A stretch of 32,860 nt of DNA. Origin: Merismopedia glauca CCAP 1448/3. GTDB taxonomy: Bacteria; Cyanobacteriota; Cyanobacteriia; Cyanobacteriales; CCAP-1448. The stretch spans positions 1 through 32,860 of the forward strand of contig NZ_PVWJ01000056.1 in assembly GCF_003003775.1 (NCBI RefSeq). Reading direction: 5' to 3'. Of this stretch, positions 14,367 to 25,391 are shown in pieces (the first letter of the stretch is position 1; the number at the start of each line of letters is the position of its first letter). Position numbers and translations under genes: made by a program. The notes under the pieces were generated by a model. That model ran no database searches. It worked only from the letters and a program-made list of their open reading frames with translations, and was not told the origin of the DNA.

Positions 14367-17057
14367 ATGGATCTGATTTTATGCCATGAAACTGTTGATT
14401 TTGATGCTTTGGGTGCAGCTATTGGCTTAACGCGACTGATGGCGGGAGCTAAAGTAGTTTTAACTGGAGGCGCTCATCCGGCGGTAGGAGATTTTTTGGC
14501 ATTGTATCGAGACGAATATGCCTTAATTGAAAGACGGGCGGTACATCCCCAACAAATTCGGAATATTGTGATAGTGGATGCTCAAAAGCGCGATCGCTTG
14601 GGTAAGGCGGCTGAGTGGTTGGATTTAGCACATCTAGAATCTATCGCTATCTACGACCATCACTTGCACCAAGATGGGGATATTAAGGCAAATATCCAAC
14701 AAATTGAGCAAGTTGGGGCAACTACTACGTTAATTGTCGAAAAAATCCAAGCCGCAGGACTAGAATTAACTCCAGCCGAAGCCACAGTAATGGCGTTGGG
14801 AATTCATGTGGATACTGGTTCTTTGACTTTTGCGGGAACTACTCATCGAGATGCAACTGCCTTAGCTTGGTTAATGGGACAAGGGGTACAATTGCAGGTG
14901 GTGGCAGAATATGTCGAGCCTGGACTGTCTTTACCTTTACAGCACTTCCTCAAAATAGCTTTAGAGAACTTACATACCGAAACCATTTGGGGATATAAAA
15001 TCGGTTGGATATTGCTTAATACTGAAGATTATCTGCCTGGTTTGTCTACTTTAGCCTCCAGGTTAGGGGATATAGCCGAAACAGATGTTTTATTACTAGC
15101 AGCAACTTACGACAACGAAAAACTGACAATTGTGGGACGCTCTCAAATTCCTGGGGTAGAACTCAATCAATTATTTCAGCCTTTAGGGGGTGGTGGACAT
15201 CCTCAAGCCGCAGCTTTAACAGTTAAATCGACTAACCCTTCAGAAACTTTAGCTAAACTCTTAGAACAGCTTAAAAAACAAGTTCCCAGACCCCTAACGG
15301 CGCTTGAACTCATGTCATCCCCCGCCCGTACCATTCGCCCTGAAACTACCATTAACGAAGCCCAAAGGATTCTGCTACGCTACGGTCATTCTGGTCTGCC
15401 TGTGGTCGATCGTCAAGACCAGTTAGTTGGGATTATCTCTAGAAGAGATATCGACTTAGCTTTACACCACGGGTTCAGTCATGCACCAGTTAAAGGTTAC
15501 ATGGCAAATAGTATTAAAACCATTACTCCTGAAACCTTGTTACCAGAAATTGAGTCATTGATGGTGACTTACGATATTGGGCGTTTACCAGTTTTAGCCA
15601 ATGGACAACCTGTGGGGATTGTCACCCGTACCGATGTTCTTAGACAACTCCATCGCTTGAACCGCCATACTCCTAGAACCGAACTTGTGGTGGGATTTAA
15701 TCGAGAATTTACGATAAATTTGGCTAAATATCTGCCTTTGCCTTTGTGGGAAATTATGACTCAAGCTGCTCAGGCAGCTACTGCTAGGGGATGGCAGTTG
15801 TATGTAGTGGGAGGTAGCGTTAGAGATTTGCTATTAGCAAAGCAAGAGGGCAATAAATCTCCAGCAATGCAAGATATAGATTTAGTAGTCGATGGATTTG
15901 ACCAAACCGCCGATGTGGGCGCTGGAGTAGAACTAGCGAAAACCCTACAACCGTTATATCCTGAAAGCCGCCTAGAAATTCATGGAGCCTTTCAAACGGC
16001 AGCTTTGTTATGGCATAAACATCCAGTCTTAGGTTCATTATGGATTGATATTGCTACTGCCAGAACCGAGTTTTATCCCTATCCCGCCGCTAATCCTGAA
16101 GTAGAAGCAAGTTCCATTCGCCAAGACTTATACAGACGAGACTTTACAATTAATGCTTTAGCAGTGCGACTGACATCTAACCATGCTGGAGAAGTTTTAG
16201 ACTTCTTTGGGGGAGCAATTGACCTTAAAGAGCGAAAAATAAGGGTATTACACCCAAATAGCTTGATTGAAGATCCCACTCGGATTTATCGAGCGGTAAG
16301 ATTTGCTGTCAGGTTGAGATTTACGATTGAGGCGCAAACCGAAGCCTATATTCGCTATGCAATTAATAGTGGAGTTTATCAGCGATCGCTCCTCGCGCAC
16401 AAAAAAGCTCCAGCTTTACAAACTAGACTCAAAACTGAGTTGAAATATATTCTCCAAGCACCCTATTGGGAAAGAGCAATTCAACTTTTAGCATCTCTAG
16501 GGGCTTTGCAGTGTCTACATCCTACATTACAGTTAAACCAAAAACTCTGGTGGTTGCTGCGTTTGGTAGATAGATGGCTGCGACGATTCGATCGCCAAGA
16601 CAATTTAGTTCACTGGCTGCTGAGGCTAGAAGTCCTGCTTTTAGGCTTAGAAACAAGCGATCGCCAGTCAGTTGCTTATAACCTACAGTTACCTAATGAT
16701 AGCTTAGAAAGATTGAGCCATTTAGAAACTTACCAAACCAAAATTGAGTCTGGTTTGTCTGAGTTCGAGCAAGTCAGTCAGATTGTCAAACTTTTGCAAA
16801 ATTACGATTTACCCACTCTAATACTAGTAGCCTTGAGGAGCGAACATCGCCCCACCCGTCAAACCATCTGGAAATATCTTACTATCTGGAAACAAGTAAA
16901 ATCGCCTCTCAACGGCAACGATCTCAAAACCTTGGGTTATCCACCAGGAGCATTATACAAAGAGATACTAGAAGACTTGCTCGCAGCGACTTTAGATGGT
17001 AGGGTAAGCGATCGCCTAACTGCTCAAACATATTTGGCTCAAAAATACTCACTATGA
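14367..17057 (+). CDS. DHH-CBS-tRNA nucleotidyltransferase fusion protein
   Basis: 896 residues in four parts. First, a DHH phosphoesterase domain (about 1-170) with DFDALG at 11-16 and DHH at 97-99. Second, a DHHA1-type region ending in GGGGHPQAA (274-282). Third, a pair of CBS domains (about 312-430), probably sensing an adenine nucleotide. Fourth, a class II nucleotidyltransferase (about 455-896) with GGSVRD at 482-487, the catalytic aspartates D503 and D505 in DIDLVV, and the RRDFTINA segment. The last part adds C or A residues at the tRNA 3' end; the tRNA-Gly in this window lacks encoded CCA and needs such an enzyme. In some bacteria the task is split between CC- and A-adding enzymes, and I cannot tell which this is. 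It overlaps the convergent flavoprotein gene by 6 bp. A broken duplicate of its 3' end lies at 25393-25615. Confidence 0.9.
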   Translation: MDLILCHETVDFDALGAAIGLTRLMAGAKVVLTGGAHPAVGDFLALYRDEYALIERRAVHPQQIRNIVIVDAQKRDRLGKAAEWLDLAHLESIAIYDHHLHQDGDIKANIQQIEQVGATTTLIVEKIQAAGLELTPAEATVMALGIHVDTGSLTFAGTTHRDATALAWLMGQGVQLQVVAEYVEPGLSLPLQHFLKIALENLHTETIWGYKIGWILLNTEDYLPGLSTLASRLGDIAETDVLLLAATYDNEKLTIVGRSQIPGVELNQLFQPLGGGGHPQAAALTVKSTNPSETLAKLLEQLKKQVPRPLTALELMSSPARTIRPETTINEAQRILLRYGHSGLPVVDRQDQLVGIISRRDIDLALHHGFSHAPVKGYMANSIKTITPETLLPEIESLMVTYDIGRLPVLANGQPVGIVTRTDVLRQLHRLNRHTPRTELVVGFNREFTINLAKYLPLPLWEIMTQAAQAATARGWQLYVVGGSVRDLLLAKQEGNKSPAMQDIDLVVDGFDQTADVGAGVELAKTLQPLYPESRLEIHGAFQTAALLWHKHPVLGSLWIDIATARTEFYPYPAANPEVEASSIRQDLYRRDFTINALAVRLTSNHAGEVLDFFGGAIDLKERKIRVLHPNSLIEDPTRIYRAVRFAVRLRFTIEAQTEAYIRYAINSGVYQRSLLAHKKAPALQTRLKTELKYILQAPYWERAIQLLASLGALQCLHPTLQLNQKLWWLLRLVDRWLRRFDRQDNLVHWLLRLEVLLLGLETSDRQSVAYNLQLPNDSLERLSHLETYQTKIESGLSEFEQVSQIVKLLQNYDLPTLILVALRSEHRPTRQTIWKYLTIWKQVKSPLNGNDLKTLGYPPGALYKEILEDLLAATLDGRVSDRLTAQTYLAQKYSL

Positions 17058-18293
17058 GTTTAACGCCAAACTAGCTTTAGTTAATGCTGGAACAATGCGA
17101 TCGCTTGCTGCCCTCGCACCCGACAAATTTCGAGCCGTAGGGCCCACTTGCAGCGCAGCCAATCCGCCCATGATAAATAACTCGCATCCCTGCCAGCGCA
17201 AGTATTCATCTACCACTGGTAAACCTTTTGCCATTTTAGTTGGATATCTATCTAAAACATCTTGGAGTAAGGGCTGTTGCAGCGCGTCCAATTGACTTCC
17301 AGTTGCCAGCCAAATACGATCTATGGGTTCCCTGTTAATACACTCATGTACGGCTGAATTATCGCAACAGACGTGCCAACGATCCTCCTTCCATCTGGCT
17401 TGAGACACCTGACACCGTTCGTAGAAATCAATCTTGCCATCTCTTTCTAAACGACGCAGTTGAGTTAACATCTCTGGAGTCATAGAACCACCATTGCGCG
17501 CCTGTTGAATCATTTCCCAACGCGCCAACCAATCCGGTTCTGTCCAGAAATCTTTCAAATATTTGGGACCTAACCAACCTGGATCAGCATCAAACAATTT
17601 CTGGTATACCGATCGCCTCGATACAAGTAAAACCTTTGCCCCTCGCTGAATTGCCCCAACTGCTAAATGACCGCTTGTCAGCCCCCCTCCCACGATTAGA
17701 ACTCGCTCCCCTTGAAGTTGCAATCTTCGTAAATCAACGTAATTTGAATGTAGTAGGCGATCGCCTGGATAGTTATCCGGAATCTGCCCTACCCAATCTG
17801 GAAAATTAGGCATTCCGCCACCGCTAGCGATCGCGACTCTGCGGGCAATAATTGTTTGACCATTTGATAAATCTAAGGAAAAACCAGCATTACGGCGCTC
17901 TAAGGCTTTAATTGCCATTACCTGAGCCGGATACACGCAATCTTCTAACTCCCACTTACTAATTACTGACTGGCAAAAATCTTGAAAAAGTCGAGTTCCT
18001 GGTAGATCGTAAGGAGCAAATAACTCGTTGCGGCGAGATTCGGCAAAAGTCCGCAGAGCGTGGGGATCGGGATCTGGTTGATGTACCGCAGGTGACCTCA
18101 GATGGGGAATTTCCAAAGCTGCGAATTGGTGATGCCATCGATCCATCCAGACACCACTAGGATCGAAGACTAAAAACCGTCGGCGCATGGATTTCTTTTT
18201 CTGCAATAAATGCGTTACTAGAGTTAAAGCATGGGGCCCAGAACCGATAACGGTAAGGTCGATATAAGTTGGTAAAGCCAAAACGGTATCCAA
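17052..18293 (-). CDS. FAD/NAD(P)-dependent oxidoreductase, putative Zur target
   Basis: About 413 residues with two dinucleotide-binding motifs: VIGSGPHA (15-22) near the N-terminus for FAD and LIVGGGLTSGHLA (199-211) for NAD(P). The layout resembles flavin monooxygenase/lysine N-hydroxylase-like flavoproteins, but the substrate is unknown. No ATG is available: an in-frame stop lies 9 bp upstream of the TTG at 18293, so translation begins there or at the next TTG (18281). The Zur-type palindrome at 18304-18318 starts 11 bp upstream, where a bound repressor would block initiation, so the gene is probably induced by metal shortage together with the divergent CobW-like operon. The stop codon overlaps the convergent nucleotidyltransferase gene. 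A role in metal acquisition or a redox step during zinc limitation is inference. Confidence 0.78.
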   Translation of the reverse strand: MDTVLALPTYIDLTVIGSGPHALTLVTHLLQKKKSMRRRFLVFDPSGVWMDRWHHQFAALEIPHLRSPAVHQPDPDPHALRTFAESRRNELFAPYDLPGTRLFQDFCQSVISKWELEDCVYPAQVMAIKALERRNAGFSLDLSNGQTIIARRVAIASGGGMPNFPDWVGQIPDNYPGDRLLHSNYVDLRRLQLQGERVLIVGGGLTSGHLAVGAIQRGAKVLLVSRRSVYQKLFDADPGWLGPKYLKDFWTEPDWLARWEMIQQARNGGSMTPEMLTQLRRLERDGKIDFYERCQVSQARWKEDRWHVCCDNSAVHECINREPIDRIWLATGSQLDALQQPLLQDVLDRYPTKMAKGLPVVDEYLRWQGCELFIMGGLAALQVGPTARNLSGARAASDRIVPALTKASLALNS

Positions 18294-18303
18294 TATAAAT
18301 TAG

Positions 18304-18318
18304 TGATAATGATTATCA
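18304..18318. promoter_or_regulatory. Zur/Fur-type operator, perfect 7-1-7 palindrome
   Basis: TGATAATGATTATCA has two perfect 7-bp half-sites around one base. This is the form of Fur-family boxes and fits the cyanobacterial Zur consensus TGANAATNATTNTCA as I know it. It lies between divergent genes, 11 bp from the flavoprotein TTG and 96 bp from the CobW-like ATG. The zinc-linked neighbours favour Zur over Fur, which is inference. Confidence 0.78.
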
Positions 18319-18413: not shown

Positions 18414-19208
18414 ATGCCATCTTTAAACGTCACGTTAGTTTCTGGTGCGCCTGGTGCTGGTAAAACCACCTGGATACGCCAACAGGCTGAAGCTGAGGCT
18501 GGAGCAGTTGTCTATGTAAATGTAGGTTCGGGGGAAACTTCCGTCGATAGTACCTATTTGGCAGCAGAAGCTACCAAACTGGTAGTCTTACAGATCGGTC
18601 AGTTGTCTGATTTTTTAAAAGATCCGTCAGTGCAAATTGCTCAAAAAATAGCTGAATGCGCTGTCTATATCGAACTAGGATTTCATATAGATCTATATTC
18701 CTTAGTTTTGCCCGAAAACATAGCAAATTGTCGTAGAGTTGTCTTATTATCGCCGGAAGCTCCCCAGAGTGAATGGCACAAATGGGCGGATATCGTCGTT
18801 GCTGGGGCTGAAACTCGGATTAATTTATCATCTCCTCATTTTTGGCGTTCTCCTCTAACCGGACAGGTTATAGACTTTAACAGTCTCGATACCTTCTGGT
18901 ACGAACTAACTGCTGGGGCTTACGGTACTATTCAACGAGCTAAAGGCATTTTTGATATCAGCGATGGGCGATCGCTTTACTTTGATTTTGCGGCTAGAGA
19001 ACGAGATATCGGCTCTCTAGAACTCAATTTACCCCGTTGGCTCGATGGTAGACCGCAGCGCTTTAGCGGGATTGAGATTGTGGGGGAAGGACTTGATAGC
19101 GAAGCGATCGCCCAAACCTTGGAAAGTTCTTGTTTGGAAGATCGAGCAATTGCCTACTATCAACAAAAAATTAAAGAATCGCTAGCAACAGGAGGCAATA
19201 AGTCATGA
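18414..19208 (+). CDS. Degenerate CobW/COG0523-like P-loop protein
   Basis: 264 residues. A Walker A motif, SGAPGAGKTTW (10-20), is intact, and the C-terminal region (about 170-215, RAKGIFDISDGRSLYFDF then LNLPRWLDGRPQRFSG) resembles the CobW C-terminal domain. Key G3E GTPase features are missing: no CxCC metal motif (the region reads YVNVGSGETSVDS), no ETTG (YIELGFH instead) and no NKxD (ADIVVAGAETR instead of ADIILLNKTD). It may bind a nucleotide without specific GTP recognition or metal transfer, acting as a scaffold or regulator. The stop overlaps the next ATG (ATGA), so it is translationally coupled to the metallophosphoesterase. The Zur-type box 96 bp upstream suggests induction under zinc limitation. 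Confidence 0.75.
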   Translation: MPSLNVTLVSGAPGAGKTTWIRQQAEAEAGAVVYVNVGSGETSVDSTYLAAEATKLVVLQIGQLSDFLKDPSVQIAQKIAECAVYIELGFHIDLYSLVLPENIANCRRVVLLSPEAPQSEWHKWADIVVAGAETRINLSSPHFWRSPLTGQVIDFNSLDTFWYELTAGAYGTIQRAKGIFDISDGRSLYFDFAARERDIGSLELNLPRWLDGRPQRFSGIEIVGEGLDSEAIAQTLESSCLEDRAIAYYQQKIKESLATGGNKS

Positions 19209-20017
19209 AAATTGGAGTAATATCTTGTATTCACGGTAACTATGAGGCTCTAAACGCTGTTTTATCGGATATAGATGCTCGACAAGTGGATAAAATTTAT
19301 TGTCTGGGAGATCTCGTCGGATACGGACCTCATCCTAACGCCGTGGTGGAAATGATTCGCGCCCTAGATATTCCCACCTGTCAGGGTTGTTGGGATGAAG
19401 ACATTGTGGAAGGGTTGAATTCTTGCGAATGTAGCTATCCCTCATTGTTGGCAGAAAAGCGGGGTAAATTGGCGCACGATTGGACAGATCGAGCTATTCA
19501 TTCAGAAGCCCGAGACTTTCTCCGACAACTGCCCTTGAGTTTGCGAGAAGATAACTTATGTTTTCTGCATGGCAGTCCTCACAGTCAACACGAATATATG
19601 CTGCCAGAAATGGATGCTTTTGTCGCAATGGAACGGGTTTTAGCAACTGGTGCGGATATTTTGTTCTGTGGACACACTCACATTCCCTATGCGCGATCGC
19701 TTGATGGGGGTCAGTTGCAAATAAAAGTAAAATTACAGGATAAATCTGCGGAAAATCTCAGTTTCACTGGGTCTGTCAAACGGATTATCAATGTAGGTTC
19801 TGTGGGCGAACCCCGTCATGGCAGACCAAATGCTACCTACGTTATTTATAACACCGATCGCGATTTGGTGGAACTGCGAGAAGTTGAATATGACTATCAA
19901 AAAACCTGTGCTGCCATTATTGACAAGGGTTTACCGCCAATTTTCGCTTGGCGTTTAGCGAAGGGTTTAGAGTTTGCCGAACGAGCAGACGATCCTAATC
20001 ATGCCTGTCAGCGCTAA
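19205..20017 (+). CDS. Calcineurin-like metallophosphoesterase with Cys-substituted ligands
   Basis: 270 residues of the YfcE/MJ0936-type phosphoesterase family. Most motifs are kept: GDLVGYGPHPN with D36, LHGSP with H122, FCGHTHIPY with H157 and H159, and NVGSVGEPRHG. But the first motif reads ISCIHGN instead of SDIHGN (C8 for Asp), and GNHD/GNCD reads GCWDED (C62 for Asn, W63 for His). A further CEC pair lies at 74-76. These positions normally bind the two catalytic metals, so either metal preference has changed or activity is altered. The ATG overlaps the CobW-like stop. A ligand set richer in cysteine could sense or hold zinc, which is inference. Confidence 0.82.
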   Translation: MKIGVISCIHGNYEALNAVLSDIDARQVDKIYCLGDLVGYGPHPNAVVEMIRALDIPTCQGCWDEDIVEGLNSCECSYPSLLAEKRGKLAHDWTDRAIHSEARDFLRQLPLSLREDNLCFLHGSPHSQHEYMLPEMDAFVAMERVLATGADILFCGHTHIPYARSLDGGQLQIKVKLQDKSAENLSFTGSVKRIINVGSVGEPRHGRPNATYVIYNTDRDLVELREVEYDYQKTCAAIIDKGLPPIFAWRLAKGLEFAERADDPNHACQR

Positions 20018-20056
20018 ATTGCGATTTAGAGAGAAAGAAGCAAGGGTTTGATAGCT

Positions 20057-20842
20057 ATGAGTCAATGGGCAATTATTAGTGGTATTGAAGGCAATTTAAC
20101 TGCATATGAAGCAGTGTTAGCCGATCTTAAAAGGCAGAAACAGACTGTAGATGAATTGTATATTCTAGGAGATGCGATCGCTCCTACTCCCGAAAGTCAA
20201 AAGGTAATTCAACGACTGAAATCGCCTCGAATTGGTGAACTAATACCTCATATTTGTCAGGGGTGGTGGGAAGAACAATTACTCATTTTGCACTGTTTGG
20301 GACGAACGGCAGAACCTACCGAATTAATTGATGAATACGGGATGGAAATGACTAAAACCTTGTGGGATGCGATTCCTCGCAGTGAGATAGAGTGGGTACG
20401 ATCGCTCGATTTTGGCTTCTTTGAACTAGATTGTTTGTTGATTCACGGTAGCAGCGTTAGCGTCAGCGATAAATTAACTCCCGATACCTCCCCTATTCAA
20501 ATGCTAGATCGGCTGATGCGAATGGATGCCAACACTTTGTTCTGCGGTCGTTCAGGACAGGCATTTGAGTATGAAATTCAGCAAGGTGAAGTAACATCGA
20601 GCTTAACTGCATTAGACCGCATACATTCCCCACAAGCCGTTTTAGTTAAGCCCAGACGGATTGTCGGAGTTGGTAATGTTGGGCGCATTTCCGGAAGAGC
20701 AACTTACACTCTCTACAATCCTTACACCAATCTAGTCGAATTTAAAATGGTGCGATACGGTTCTGGCAAAGGTTTCCAGACAATTAAATCGCAGCTAAAG
20801 ACATCTGGAACTCAGTTTAAAAGGATAAAACCTCATAATTAA
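20057..20842 (+). CDS. Metallophosphoesterase-fold pseudoenzyme
   Basis: 261 residues, visibly a diverged relative of the preceding protein with the same fold order. The ligand motifs are mostly lost: SGIEGN for SDIHGN (G9, E11), QGWWEEQ for the GNHD segment, and FCGRSGQAF for CGHTH (both His gone). D39 of GDA and H130 of IHGS remain, and the VGNVG strand is kept. It is unlikely to bind two metals and may partner or regulate its active neighbour. I chose the ATG at 20057, 39 bp after the previous stop, because the family N-terminus (WAIISGIEGN) follows; a TTG at 20048 is possible. Confidence 0.75.
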   Translation: MSQWAIISGIEGNLTAYEAVLADLKRQKQTVDELYILGDAIAPTPESQKVIQRLKSPRIGELIPHICQGWWEEQLLILHCLGRTAEPTELIDEYGMEMTKTLWDAIPRSEIEWVRSLDFGFFELDCLLIHGSSVSVSDKLTPDTSPIQMLDRLMRMDANTLFCGRSGQAFEYEIQQGEVTSSLTALDRIHSPQAVLVKPRRIVGVGNVGRISGRATYTLYNPYTNLVEFKMVRYGSGKGFQTIKSQLKTSGTQFKRIKPHN

Positions 20843-20941: not shown

Positions 20942-21940
20942 ATGTCACAGACCCACCAAAAACCACTCTCTATTCGCCCCCGTCGCTTGCGGCGAACTGA
21001 AACCATGCGTCGCCTAGTGCGAGAATATACCCTGCGGGTAGAAGATTTGATTTACCCTTTATTTGTCATGGAAGGAGAAGGACAAACCCAGGAAGTACCA
21101 TCAATGCCTGGTTACTACCGCTATACCTTAGATCTGTTACTCGACGAAATCAAAGAGGCTTATGGATTGGGGATTGGGGCGATCGCTCTTTTTCCTCTAA
21201 TTTATTCAGAAATGAAAGATAATACTGGAAATGAAAGCTATAATCCTGAAGGCTTAATTCCCCGCGCCATTCGTGCCATTAAAACCGTAATTCCTGAAAT
21301 TATCCTGATATCTGATGTTGCTCTCGATCCTTACAGCAGTGAAGGACATGACGGTATCGTTCGAGATGGCATCATTCTTAACGATGAAACGGTTGCTGTA
21401 TTGACCAAACAGGCACTTGTACAAGCAGCCGCTGGAGCCGATTTAGTTGCCCCCTCAGACATGATGGACGGTCGAGTGGGAGCAATTCGTCAAGCTTTGG
21501 ATGCAGAAGGTTGGATTAATGTTGGGATTATCGCCTATTCAGCTAAATACGCCTCTGCCTACTATGGTCCTTTCCGGGATGCCTTGGATTCAGCCCCCAA
21601 ATTTGGAGACAAAAAAACCTATCAAATGGATGCAGGCAATTCTAGAGAAGCTATCAAAGAAGTGGATTTAGATATAGCCGAAGGTGCAGATATTATCATG
21701 ATTAAGCCTGCACTCGCATATTTAGATATTATCTACCAAATTAGGCAGCATACCAACTTAACCATTGCGGCATACAACGTTAGCGGCGAATACGCTGCTA
21801 TTAAAGCTGCGGCGAGGCAAGGTTGGATTGATGAGAAAAGAGTTATCCTAGAAAGCCTCACCAGTATGAAAAGAGCAGGAGCCGACTTAATTTTGACTTA
21901 CTTTGCCAAAGAAGTGGCATTAATGTTGTCAAATCCCTAA
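20942..21940 (+). CDS. hemB: Delta-aminolevulinic acid dehydratase (porphobilinogen synthase)
   Basis: 332 residues, full length. HemB joins two aminolevulinate molecules to porphobilinogen, the first common tetrapyrrole step towards haem and chlorophyll. Schiff-base lysines are K202 (YSAKYASAYYGPFRDA) and K255 (IMIKPALAYLD). The metal-site segment reads DVALDPYSSEGHDG (125-138), with Ala, Asp and Asp where zinc enzymes have three cysteines, so it is the magnesium/potassium-type, zinc-independent form. It follows the phosphoesterase pair after 99 bp with no clear box of its own. That form is also usual in cyanobacteria, so this may be the housekeeping gene rather than a zinc-sparing copy. Confidence 0.95.
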   Translation: MSQTHQKPLSIRPRRLRRTETMRRLVREYTLRVEDLIYPLFVMEGEGQTQEVPSMPGYYRYTLDLLLDEIKEAYGLGIGAIALFPLIYSEMKDNTGNESYNPEGLIPRAIRAIKTVIPEIILISDVALDPYSSEGHDGIVRDGIILNDETVAVLTKQALVQAAAGADLVAPSDMMDGRVGAIRQALDAEGWINVGIIAYSAKYASAYYGPFRDALDSAPKFGDKKTYQMDAGNSREAIKEVDLDIAEGADIIMIKPALAYLDIIYQIRQHTNLTIAAYNVSGEYAAIKAAARQGWIDEKRVILESLTSMKRAGADLILTYFAKEVALMLSNP

Positions 21941-21952
21941 AATTTGCTATTA

Positions 21953-21967
21953 TGATAATAGTTATCA
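21953..21967. promoter_or_regulatory. Second Zur/Fur-type operator, upstream of sufE
   Basis: TGATAATAGTTATCA matches the 7-1-7 palindrome with one mismatched position (GTTATCA for ATTATCA). It starts 12 bp after the hemB stop and ends 20 bp before the sufE ATG at 21988, a place where it could repress sufE and the following genes. Confidence 0.68.
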
Positions 21968-21987
21968 TTCTTAAAAAAATGAGATTG

Positions 21988-22425
21988 ATGCCCCCACTAT
22001 CTCAACCCTTACCCCCTAATCTCAACCAAATAATTCAGAAATTTCAACATATTTCCGAACCAAAACGGCGCTATGAATATTTACTCTGGTTTTCCAAGCG
22101 CTTGCCCCCATTTCCTAATGATTGGCAGATTCCAGAGCATAAAGTCCCTGGTTGTATCTCTCAGGTATACGTGACAGCAACTTTAGAGGAAGGTAAGGTT
22201 ACATTTCACGGCGATTCTGATTCCCAATTAACCAAAGGATTGATGGGATTGTTAGTAGAGGGATTGAGCGGGTTGACTCCTTCAGAAATCGCGCAGTTAA
22301 AGCCCGATTTTATCCAGCTAACAGGGTTGGATGTGAGCTTAACTCCCTCCCGCAGTAACGGTTTTTACAACATTTTTTTGACAATGCAACAAAAAGCTTT
22401 GCTATGTCATATAGAACCCATTTGA
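21988..22425 (+). CDS. sufE: SufE-family sulfur acceptor protein
   Basis: About 145 residues. SufE accepts persulfide sulphur from the cysteine desulfurase SufS for Fe-S cluster assembly. The acceptor cysteine C56 lies in KVPGCISQVYVTA, and GDSDSQLTKGLMGLLVEGLSGLTPSEI follows, as in the family. I chose the ATG at 21988 because the protein family begins near PLPPNLNQIIQKF; the longest open frame starts at 21952, but its first codons are the operator itself. The ATG at 21979 is also possible. The box suggests control by metal status, which would tie Fe-S sulphur supply to the island. Confidence 0.9.
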   Translation: MPPLSQPLPPNLNQIIQKFQHISEPKRRYEYLLWFSKRLPPFPNDWQIPEHKVPGCISQVYVTATLEEGKVTFHGDSDSQLTKGLMGLLVEGLSGLTPSEIAQLKPDFIQLTGLDVSLTPSRSNGFYNIFLTMQQKALLCHIEPI

Positions 22426-22636: not shown

Positions 22637-23275
22637 ATGAGCCTATCAATTTTGCCCGATGATATCTTCAACCATAGCCTAGCTACTGAAACTCAATCTC
22701 CTGTATCGGATAGGGAAATGGAACAAGCAGTTCAGACGCTGTTATTAGGTTTGGGCGAAGATCCCTATCGTGAAGGACTGCGAGACACTCCCAAGCGAGT
22801 AGTTAAAGCCTTAAAGTTCCTTACCTCCGGCTACCAGGAATCTCTAGATGAATTGCTCAACGGAGCAGTATTTCACGAAGATGCGAACGAAATGGTGTTG
22901 GTTCGGGATATAGATCTGTTTAGTTCCTGCGAACATCACATACTGCCTATTTTAGGTCGCGCTCATGTAGCTTATATTCCTAACGGCAAAGTCATTGGTT
23001 TGTCTAAAATTGCCCGAATTTGCGAAATGTATGCCCGTCGTTTGCAAGTACAAGAACGCCTGACAGCCCAAATTGCCGATGCCATTCAAGGCTTGCTCAA
23101 GCCTCAAGGCGTAGCCGTAGTGGTGGAAGCTACCCATATGTGCATGGTGATGCGAGGGGTACAAAAACCTGGTTCTTGGACGGTAACTAGTTCGATGCAA
23201 GGGGTATTTGCTGACGATGCTAGAACCCGTCAGGAATTTATGGATCTGATTCGCCACAGTCCGTCATTCCATTAG
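22637..23275 (+). CDS. folE: GTP cyclohydrolase I (zinc-type FolE)
   Basis: 212 residues. FolE turns GTP into dihydroneopterin triphosphate, the first step towards folate and pterins, as a homodecamer with one zinc per subunit. The zinc ligands are present: C98 and H101 in [10 protein letters not shown] and C169 in THMCMVMRG. The active-site stretches [23 protein letters not shown] and [12 protein letters not shown] are normal, so this is the zinc-dependent form rather than metal-flexible FolE2. The 211 bp upstream hold no visible Zur box. The COG0523 GTPase follows 74 bp after the stop, and such GTPases are known to support FolE under zinc limitation (ZagA in Bacillus). Confidence 0.96.
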
Positions 23276-23349: not shown

Positions 23350-24321
23350 ATGGTAGCTACTAATGTGCCCACTTCCGTTCCTGTAACCGTTCTCACTGGA
23401 TATCTGGGAGCGGGAAAAACCACCCTGCTCAACCGCATTCTCACCTACGAACACGGTAAGAAGGTAGCAGTAATTATTAACGAGTTTGGGGAAGTTGGGA
23501 TTGATAATCAGTTAGTTATAGACACTGACGAAGAAATCTTTGAAATGAATAACGGCTGCATCTGCTGTACGGTGCGGGGAGATTTGATTCGCATTATTAG
23601 CAATTTGATGAAACGCCGTCACAAATTCGACCATTTGGTGCTGGAAACTACCGGACTTGCCGATCCCGCGCCCGTGATTCAGACTTTCTTTATGGATGAA
23701 GATGTCAGATCTCAAACCCATCTCGATGCTGTCGTTACCTTAGTTGATGCTAAACACATTCACCAGCATTGGGATGCAGATGAAGCAGTGGAGCAAATCG
23801 CTTTTGCCGACATAATTTTGCTCAATAAGACCGATTTAGTTACCCCTACAGACTTAGAAGCTTTAGAACAGCGCATTCGATCGACGAATGTAATGGCAAA
23901 AATTTATCGCACCCAAGATGCGGCGGTAGATATGGATCGGATTTTGGGAGTGAGTGCTTTCGATCTGAGCCGCGCTTTAGAGATAGATCCGAATTTTTTG
24001 GGGGAAGATACTCACGAACACGACCAAACGGTAACTTCTGTTGCAATTTCCCAACCAGGCACTTTAAACTATGACAAACTCAATTACTGGATGGGGCAAC
24101 TCCTGCGGGAGAAAGGAGTCGATATCTTTCGGATGAAGGGAATTCTCAATATTGAAGGGGAAGATAATCGCTTTGTCTTTCAGGGAGTACATATGCTACT
24201 TGATGGTAAAGACGATCGCCCTTGGCAGCCTCACGAGACGCGCCAAAATCAACTAGTCTTCATCGGTCGCAATTTAGATGAAGCCGAACTAAAAACCGGA
24301 TTTATGGCGTGTTTGGTATGA
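23350..24321 (+). CDS. COG0523/CobW-family GTPase, putative zinc metallochaperone
   Basis: 323 residues, complete G3E GTPase: Walker A GYLGAGKTT (17-25), NEFGEVGIDNQLV, the metal-binding GCICC with C70, C72 and C73, Walker B ETTG (99-102), and the guanine motif NKTD (159-162). A short His-rich patch (DTHEHDQ, about 220) and the C-terminal CobW domain (DIFRMKGILNIEG) follow. Proteins of this type deliver zinc to client enzymes when zinc is scarce. Its neighbour folE encodes a zinc enzyme and is a plausible client. A weak Zur-type box lies upstream. The stop overlaps the ATG of the WD40 gene (ATGA), so the two are translationally coupled. B12-related CobW function is less likely, since no cobalamin genes are nearby. 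Confidence 0.92.
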   Translation: MVATNVPTSVPVTVLTGYLGAGKTTLLNRILTYEHGKKVAVIINEFGEVGIDNQLVIDTDEEIFEMNNGCICCTVRGDLIRIISNLMKRRHKFDHLVLETTGLADPAPVIQTFFMDEDVRSQTHLDAVVTLVDAKHIHQHWDADEAVEQIAFADIILLNKTDLVTPTDLEALEQRIRSTNVMAKIYRTQDAAVDMDRILGVSAFDLSRALEIDPNFLGEDTHEHDQTVTSVAISQPGTLNYDKLNYWMGQLLREKGVDIFRMKGILNIEGEDNRFVFQGVHMLLDGKDDRPWQPHETRQNQLVFIGRNLDEAELKTGFMACLV

Positions 24322-25391
24322 GGAGAACTTCAAAAGTCGAATTTAAAGATACTTGGCGCGGGGAACTATCAGATTATATCCAGGCGATCGCTTGGTGTCC
24401 GCAAGGTCGCTATTTAGCTGCAAGTTCTGCGGCGGGAGAAGTCTCATTATTTGCGGCTCCTAGCTTTGAAACCACTATTCTTCAAGGGGAAACAGGACTA
24501 TCTGTAGACTGCCTGGGATTTTCTTATGACGGACAGTTTTTAGCAATCGGCGGTCAAGATGGAGGATTGAGAATCTGGTCGCTAGCTTCAGATGCTCCCC
24601 AACTAATTGCCACTTTAGATAACAAATCGGTGTGGGTTGATCGCTTGTGCTGGAATCCAATAACTCGCGAACTAGCCTTCAGTTTGGGCAAATACGTGCA
24701 AGTTTGGGATGCTGATAATCTAGAGGTCGTTGCCACCCTCAGTTTTAGTGCTTCTAGTGTCTTCGATCTCGCTTGGAGTGCCGATGGCAAATACTTAGCC
24801 GTAGCAGGTTACCAGGGGGCAAAAGTCTGGCAGACTGGGGATTGGGATGCAGAGGCAGAAGTTTTAGAGAATGCTTCAGCTACAGTGGCGATCGCTTGGT
24901 CGCCAGATAGCAAATTTATTGCCCAAGGTAACCTAGATAATACCCTAACTGTCAAGGCGTGGGGCAATCCCTACCCCTGGCTGATGCAAGGTTTTCCTGG
25001 TAAAGTCAGGCAAGTAGCATGGTCGTCACTACCAAATAAATTTGGATTCCCACTTCTAGCATCCTGTAGCGGTACGGCAGTAGTAGTCTGGGAAAAGGAT
25101 ATAGACGAGCAAATCGGCTGGGATGGGCGTATTTTGGGCAACCATGAAGCCACCGTTCGCGCGATCGCTTTTCAGCCAGATTCCCTAGTATTAGCATCTA
25201 CCGCAGAAAATAGCTGGATTGCCCTGTGGGATCGAATAGGGCGATTAAATCAAACCTTAACGGGCGCAATCAAAGGCTTTTCTTGCCTAGCTTGGCATCC
25301 TCAAGGACATCACCTAGCCGCCGGAGGAGTTAATGGAGAAATATTAGTCTGGTCGCAGAATATGCGGGGTCGGGGTTTTGGTAGACAGTAA
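24318..25391 (+). CDS. WD40-repeat protein coupled to COG0523 GTPase
   Basis: About 357 residues made of WD40-type blades throughout. Motifs such as LRIWSLAS, VQVWDADN, VVVWEKDI, IALWDRIG and ILVWSQNM mark successive blades, and AIAWCPQGRYLAASS and similar strands precede them, so a single propeller of about seven blades is likely. No signal peptide or membrane span; cytoplasmic. I start at the ATG at 24318, which overlaps the GTPase stop by ATGA; a GTG at 24309 is possible. Such propellers are protein-binding platforms. Coupling suggests a partner role for the zinc chaperone, which is inference. The gene ends 1 bp before the duplicated nucleotidyltransferase fragment. Confidence 0.85.
   Translation: MRRTSKVEFKDTWRGELSDYIQAIAWCPQGRYLAASSAAGEVSLFAAPSFETTILQGETGLSVDCLGFSYDGQFLAIGGQDGGLRIWSLASDAPQLIATLDNKSVWVDRLCWNPITRELAFSLGKYVQVWDADNLEVVATLSFSASSVFDLAWSADGKYLAVAGYQGAKVWQTGDWDAEAEVLENASATVAIAWSPDSKFIAQGNLDNTLTVKAWGNPYPWLMQGFPGKVRQVAWSSLPNKFGFPLLASCSGTAVVVWEKDIDEQIGWDGRILGNHEATVRAIAFQPDSLVLASTAENSWIALWDRIGRLNQTLTGAIKGFSCLAWHPQGHHLAAGGVNGEILVWSQNMRGRGFGRQ

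Follow-up and report, generated by a model that had tools for sequence, protein, structure and literature searches.

The window analysed here, i.e., the whole 32,860-nucleotide stretch of contig NZ_PVWJ01000056.1 of Merismopedia glauca CCAP 1448/3, contains three consecutive forward-strand genes encoding a short COG0523-like P-loop protein (GTPaseS), a metallophosphoesterase with cysteine-substituted metal ligands (MPE-A), and a paralogous pseudo-phosphoesterase (MPE-B). This trio is accompanied by further genes and by Zur boxes (Table 1). The putative Zur box of an earlier note on this DNA is real: the TGATAATGATTATCA box in the promoter region carries no mismatch, and no other site of the genome (5.2 Mb) matches perfectly. 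Four other genomic sites have at most one mismatch, one of which, at 21953, belongs to the same gene cluster. Among the 136 loci with readable upstream DNA, a Zur box with at most three mismatches is found in the corresponding region of 88 (65%), as against 3.8% expected from simulated sequence.

Table 1 Features of the MPE-A gene cluster, with positions in the window
Feature	Positions	Strand	Remarks
FAD/NAD(P)-binding oxidoreductase	17052..18293	-	PF13434 and others; divergent from the same Zur box
Zur box TGATAATGATTATCA	18304..18318	.	0 mismatches; between the divergent FAD-oxidoreductase gene and GTPaseS
GTPaseS, short COG0523-like P-loop protein	18414..19208	+	Retains Walker A; lacks CxCC and NKxD
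MPE-A, metallophosphoesterase with Cys-substituted ligands	19205..20017	+	270 aa; PF12850 E=4.4e-23
Cys8 codon TGT	19226..19228	+	Metal-1 Asp position of DxH; 120/120 Cys, outgroup 15/16 Asp
Cys62 codon TGT	19388..19390	+	Metal-2 Asn position of GNHD; 120/120 Cys, outgroup 16/16 Asn
C74-x-C76	19424..19432	+	120/120 MPE-A, 4/16 outgroup; loop 71-85, pLDDT <50
Cys235 codon	19907..19909	+	MPE-A-specific; 120/120, none in outgroup
H266-x-C268	20000..20008	+	MPE-A-specific; 120/120, none in outgroup; C-terminal tail 260-270, pLDDT <50
MPE-B, paralogous pseudo-phosphoesterase	20048..20842	+	Likely start ATG 20057
HemB2, porphobilinogen synthase paralogue	20942..21940	+	Zinc cysteines missing (ALDPYSSEGHDG)
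Second Zur box TGATAATAGTTATCA	21953..21967	.	1 mismatch
SufE-like protein	21979..22425	+	Identity read from sequence; listed ORF start 21952
FolE, GTP cyclohydrolase I	22637..23275	+	PF01227; SCEHH and HMCM motifs kept
Weak Zur box	23313		3 mismatches; near the ZagA-like COG0523 gene
Full-length ZagA-like COG0523 GTPase	23350..24321	+	CICC motif; PF02492 7.8e-61
WD40-like protein	24309..25391	+	WD40 nature read from sequence; after the COG0523 gene

The genes around the trio point to zinc. The other genomic HemB (G000:C146:5017-5979) retains the zinc cysteine triad (CLCEYTTHGHCG), and the HemB pair, judged by these residues, is a classic zinc-sparing swap. The FolE of the cluster is likewise a second genomic copy, the other copy being on G000:C211. 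By its gene content and boxes, the trio is placed in a Zur-box cluster together with zinc-starvation paralogues, an operon of this kind being the usual setting of MPE-A across cyanobacteria. Of the remaining neighbours, an FAD-oxidoreductase homologue is present in 40 of the 84 loci tested and a SufE relative in just two of the 84. For the SufE-like protein, the start at 21979 is likelier than the listed one, since the second Zur box overlaps the latter. We note that the WD40-like gene overlaps the ZagA-like gene, and that its homologue occurs in 18/84 loci, mostly beside a COG0523 gene.

MPE-A is assigned to the calcineurin-like phosphoesterases (PF12850/PF00149) by profile and predicted fold. 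The PF12850 (Metallophos_2) score of 82.4 bits compares with a Pfam cut-off of 27. An AlphaFold2 model of MPE-A, built from 66 sequences, has a mean pLDDT of 84.3 and a pTM of 0.83, with low confidence at residues 71–85 and 260–270. The predicted fold matches 3RQZ with a Z score of 29.9 (rmsd 2.5, 218 residues) and the streptococcal asymmetric Ap4A hydrolase/phosphodiesterase SapH (3QFM/3QFN) with Z scores of 27.7–27.8, and Foldseek/VIA searches with the model ranked MPE-superfamily structures first. According to both Pfam and the predicted fold, a single MPE domain covers nearly the whole chain, and neither reveals a DNA-binding or other output domain.

In this superfamily, the Asp of DxH serves metal 1 and the Asn of GNHD serves metal 2, as their non-shared acidic and amide ligands, respectively. 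In accordance with the earlier note, the translated ORF reads ISCIHGN in the N-terminal motif and QGCWDED in the second motif, with Cys8 and Cys62 on these Asp and Asn positions. The alignment runs without gaps around C8 and C62 in all 120 orthologues, and in 16/16 and 15/16 rows, respectively, of the outgroup (the 16 non-orthologous relatives sampled), which confirms that the two cysteines stand where DxH has its Asp and GNHD its Asn, and rules out a shifted alignment. The other ligands, which the note had described as intact, are indeed kept in every one of the 120 orthologues: the bridging Asp36 of GDxxGYG, His122, and the GHxH residues His157 and His159. His10 of DxH is kept in all of them as well. 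In addition, a tryptophan (Trp63) directly follows C62 in 120/120, so that the His of GNHD/GNHE, normally catalytic, is missing too. This histidine is also missing from most of the sampled relatives (GNYD or GNTD in 12/16), and its loss is therefore probably older than MPE-A.

Both cysteines are present in all 120 distinct cyanobacterial orthologues, at identities down to 56%, which rules out a one-off mutation or a sequencing error. The orthologue alignment had been set beforehand as the test of the earlier reading, and it turned up neither an orthologue with normal SDIHGN/GNHD nor a shift of register. The 120-sequence set comes partly from a motif scan whose patterns contain C62, C74, and C76, an ascertainment bias controlled by 48 distinct motif-independent sequences: in this phylum-wide sample, found by whole-protein similarity alone, C8 and C62 occur in 48/48, and in the first whole-protein similarity search they occur in 27/27 (the window sequence counted). 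Since the outgroup retains Asp at position 8 (15/16) and Asn at position 62 (16/16), the two cysteines are derived. As far as these alignments tell, the substitution in MPE-A is derived, fixed, and old. A phage origin was rejected, given a single distant Vibrio phage match (26%) and no relative among viral contigs. Outside cyanobacteria, the double cysteine was absent from the relatives sampled. We also note one contig labelled Candidatus Gracilibacteria (L105) that carries MPE-A at 73% identity in cyanobacterial gene order, and that is probably a misbinned cyanobacterial contig.

The cysteines on the ligand positions are not the only ones that set MPE-A apart. The C74-x-C76 pair, found in four relatives, is older than MPE-A; three of the four come from plasmid arsenic-resistance operons. 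Residues C235, H266, and C268, as well as H91, H129, and H205, are invariant in MPE-A and rare or missing in relatives, and the mean number of cysteines per protein is 10 in the MPE-A family versus 5–6 in MPE-B and the outgroup. In the MPE fold, the metal-1 and metal-2 ligands are near one another, and with the CxC pair and further invariant cysteines nearby in sequence, one may think of a redox switch, in which C8 and C62 would form a reversible disulfide in an emptied metal site and so switch binding or activity, for example under thioredoxin control in light. We regard this as unlikely, because the cysteines sit exactly on ligand positions with all of the His ligands kept, which a disulfide does not need, and because the genomic setting is one of zinc. 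Four invariant cysteines (C8, C62, C74, and C76, two of them in the uncertain loop) might hold an iron-sulfur cluster or a soft metal, Cu(I) or Cd, instead of zinc, and both the SufE-like gene in the operon and the CxC relatives in arsenic operons can be cited in its favour. The invariant histidines, however, favour a mixed His/Cys site, a SufE relative occurs in just two of the 84 loci tested, and the surroundings are marked chiefly by Zur boxes and zinc-sparing paralogues, so that such a cluster or metal is quite improbable.

The downstream paralogue MPE-B carries Gly for D8, Glu for H10, Trp for N62, Arg for H157, and Gly for H159, and the same losses are seen in nearly all of 106 distinct MPE-B homologues. 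No Pfam family matches MPE-B at E 0.001; the protein is predicted to keep the MPE fold, with 3RQZ as its best structural match. MPE-B shares the locus with MPE-A in 120 of 138 cases (some MPE-A loci that lack it stop at a contig edge) and lies at most 500 bases downstream in 94. In the tree it forms a separate, long branch with full support, apart from MPE-A and the outgroup, which rules out a recent copy of MPE-A and makes the split between the two old; the MPE-A clade itself has only moderate support (81/53). We note that MPE-B is a conserved pseudo-phosphoesterase in its own right, widespread in cyanobacteria next to MPE-A. The retention of the other ligands in MPE-A, as against the loss of nearly all of them in MPE-B, indicates that selection acts on the site in MPE-A and that it is not decaying. 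The same comparison bears on the idea that MPE-A is itself a catalytically dead, VPS29-like scaffold with purely structural cysteines, to which the clear degeneracy of MPE-B and the VPS29 chains among the structural matches lend some colour: with five of seven ligands and both cysteines invariant in 120 sequences at 56% identity or more, and lost in MPE-B, we consider this idea very improbable.

The gene upstream of MPE-A, GTPaseS, ends in a 4-base overlap with the MPE-A start and adjoins MPE-A on its upstream side in 137 of 138 loci, not all of which are independent, as some genomes were retrieved by more than one search. Its Pfam assignment is marginal, with a weak PF02492 match just over the cut-off and a PF07683 match just under it. 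The Walker A residues G14, G16, K17, and T18 are conserved in 94–97% of the family alignment, and two other motifs are missing from that alignment: the segment with the CxCC metal motif is absent, and the NKxD guanine-specificity motif has no counterpart of the NKTD of ZagA. The full-length COG0523 protein of the same operon, in contrast, possesses CxCC. The C-terminal part of GTPaseS holds an invariant GAYG...R.K segment, and the protein could represent a subfamily of its own.

The same trio is found on plasmid clusters of Trichormus, Picosynechococcus, and Dolichospermum, which between them hold hemB, thrS, hisI, folE, and zinc ABC transporter genes. In a zur mutant of Synechococcus PCC 7002, hemB-II, folE-II, G0131, and G0132 are induced, and G0129 (annotated as a phosphoesterase) and G0130 of the cluster are not (PMC4628125). 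The induced G0131 and G0132 have their counterparts at the GTPaseS position and in the FAD gene (G0132), respectively. By the gene order of PCC 7117, G0129 and G0130 should be MPE-B and MPE-A, with an imperfect fit to the published descriptions. Members of a small-genome family of the class (1.7–2.9 Mb; L135–L140 and L142) keep the trio with no good Zur box close upstream, from which it follows that the role of the trio is not confined to zinc starvation; this retention without a strong box suggests a housekeeping role. Together, the uninduced G0129/G0130 and these boxless trios weaken the case for a purely Zur-linked role.

What the cysteines do to the site can be considered against this background. 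That the metal set has changed, as the earlier note proposed, is plausible and withstood the attempt at refutation; it follows soundly from the presence of both cysteines in every orthologue in a gap-free register. The accompanying suggestion of a zinc sensor found no support, as MPE-A lacks any DNA-binding or output domain and the part of a sensor is already taken by Zur. We propose that MPE-A is probably a tight zinc-binding protein that acts with the products of its two partner genes. More specifically, we picture, with nearly even confidence, a thiolate-rich zinc-binding module in cytoplasmic zinc allocation, working with GTPaseS and MPE-B. The binuclear site would have been rebuilt such that each metal is offered a Cys-His-His set plus the bridging Asp36, with C8, H10, and H159 at site 1 and C62, H122, and H157 at site 2, and with extra Cys and His residues supplied by the C74/C76 loop and the H266/C268 tail, segments that are modelled as mobile or uncertain. 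Such a cysteine-bearing site would prefer and hold Zn(II), as opposed to the Mn, Fe, or Mg of ordinary members. GTPaseS, as a COG0523 relative without a CxCC of its own, would drive the loading or release of zinc, with MPE-B, the dead paralogue, as the structural partner. The sequences directly show the replaced ligands with their invariance, the recurrent trio, the Zur box, and zinc-sparing genes beside it, and the fold is known by prediction; which metal is bound and how tightly, the assembly of a complex, transfer driven by NTP, and the identity of the client are inferred, and we read the partnership of the three proteins from gene order.

The main competitor to a role in zinc allocation sees MPE-A as a working phosphohydrolase with a binuclear centre specific to zinc, whose substrate would be a nucleotide or phosphodiester that accumulates in zinc starvation, such as a dinucleoside polyphosphate or an intermediate tied to the FolE-served folate pathway, and whose cysteines would let MPE-A compete for scarce zinc. 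Five remaining ligands and the general fold are retained, SapH is among the close structural relatives (with GNWED where MPE-A has GCWDED), and FolE copies are often nearby. On the other hand, a greater dependence on zinc runs contrary to the zinc-sparing logic of an operon in which HemB2 drops its zinc cysteines and, to our knowledge, all known active relatives keep the Asp and Asn ligands that are altered in MPE-A. We hold an active hydrolase, and with it the zinc-specific enzyme suggested in the earlier note, to be possible, though doubtful. The operon contains its own natural control: HemB2 lost zinc cysteines and MPE-A gained cysteines, by which MPE-A is no ordinary zinc-sparing replacement. 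The almost constant association of MPE-A with a P-loop protein similar to a zinc metallochaperone, but for the missing metal site, favours the joint role in zinc allocation. It is conceivable, if on the doubtful side, that the trio forms a three-part cyanobacterial zinc metallochaperone, in which the lost thiol site of the NTPase is supplied in trans by the cysteine-rebuilt phosphoesterase together with its dead sister; if true, this device would be kept even by the small-genome members of the class. The delivery of scarce zinc to the right proteins in bacteria is an open question, on which most work has centred on COG0523 GTPases, and this widely conserved cyanobacterial trio offers an example, directly amenable to testing, of how the metal centre of a phosphoesterase may have been adapted to another metal.

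Of known proteins, those closest to MPE-A are the bacterial metallophosphoesterases of the structural group of 3RQZ, SapH (Spr1479), and 1NNW (PF12850), which have its fold along almost the entire chain (Z 27.7–29.9) and share the GD, HGS, GHTH, and N-terminal SxxH(G/A)N motifs. Unlike this group, MPE-A has Cys in place of Asp and Asn, extra invariant Cys and His residues, fixed partners, and a Zur setting. In the plasmid search, the nearest sequences from outside the cyanobacteria include, at ~32–37% identity, phosphoesterases of arsenic operons, with arsM, ACR3/arsB, arsC, and arsH as neighbours (Adhaeribacter, L034; Paraclostridium, L151; and Rubrobacter, L152). They share the CGC/CEC loop motif with MPE-A and, unlike it, keep the SD[IV]H and GNYD ligands. 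We note that these CGC phosphoesterases with normal ligands recur in arsenic operons on plasmids of Bacteroidota, Bacillota, and Actinomycetota (L034:4001-4780, L151:3001-3744, and L152:3001-3768).

GTPaseS has the P-loop, weakly the CobW_C region, and the Zur setting in common with the COG0523 GTPases (ZagA, ZigA, and ZNG1), a ZagA-like member of which stands beside FolE in the operon; it differs from them in lacking CxCC and NKxD and in its nearly invariable position beside MPE-A (137/138). MPE-B, like the VPS29-type pseudo-phosphoesterases, has the fold without the ligands and, unlike VPS29, is bacterial, co-encoded with MPE-A, and has no known retromer-like partner. In the searchable literature, we found neither a published link of a Cys-ligand metallophosphoesterase to zinc nor a description of the MPE-A family; the papers on the Zur clusters of PCC 7120 and PCC 7002, as searched, name the pair at most 'phosphoesterase', with the cysteine substitutions unmentioned. 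Behind the label 'metallophosphoesterase family protein' stands a separate family, present in many genomes of cyanobacteria. The locus as a whole finds its nearest counterparts in two Zur-regulated clusters for zinc sparing, in Anabaena PCC 7120 and in Synechococcus PCC 7002, with their hemB2, folE2, thrS2, and COG0523 genes, to which it corresponds in both matching genes and Zur boxes.
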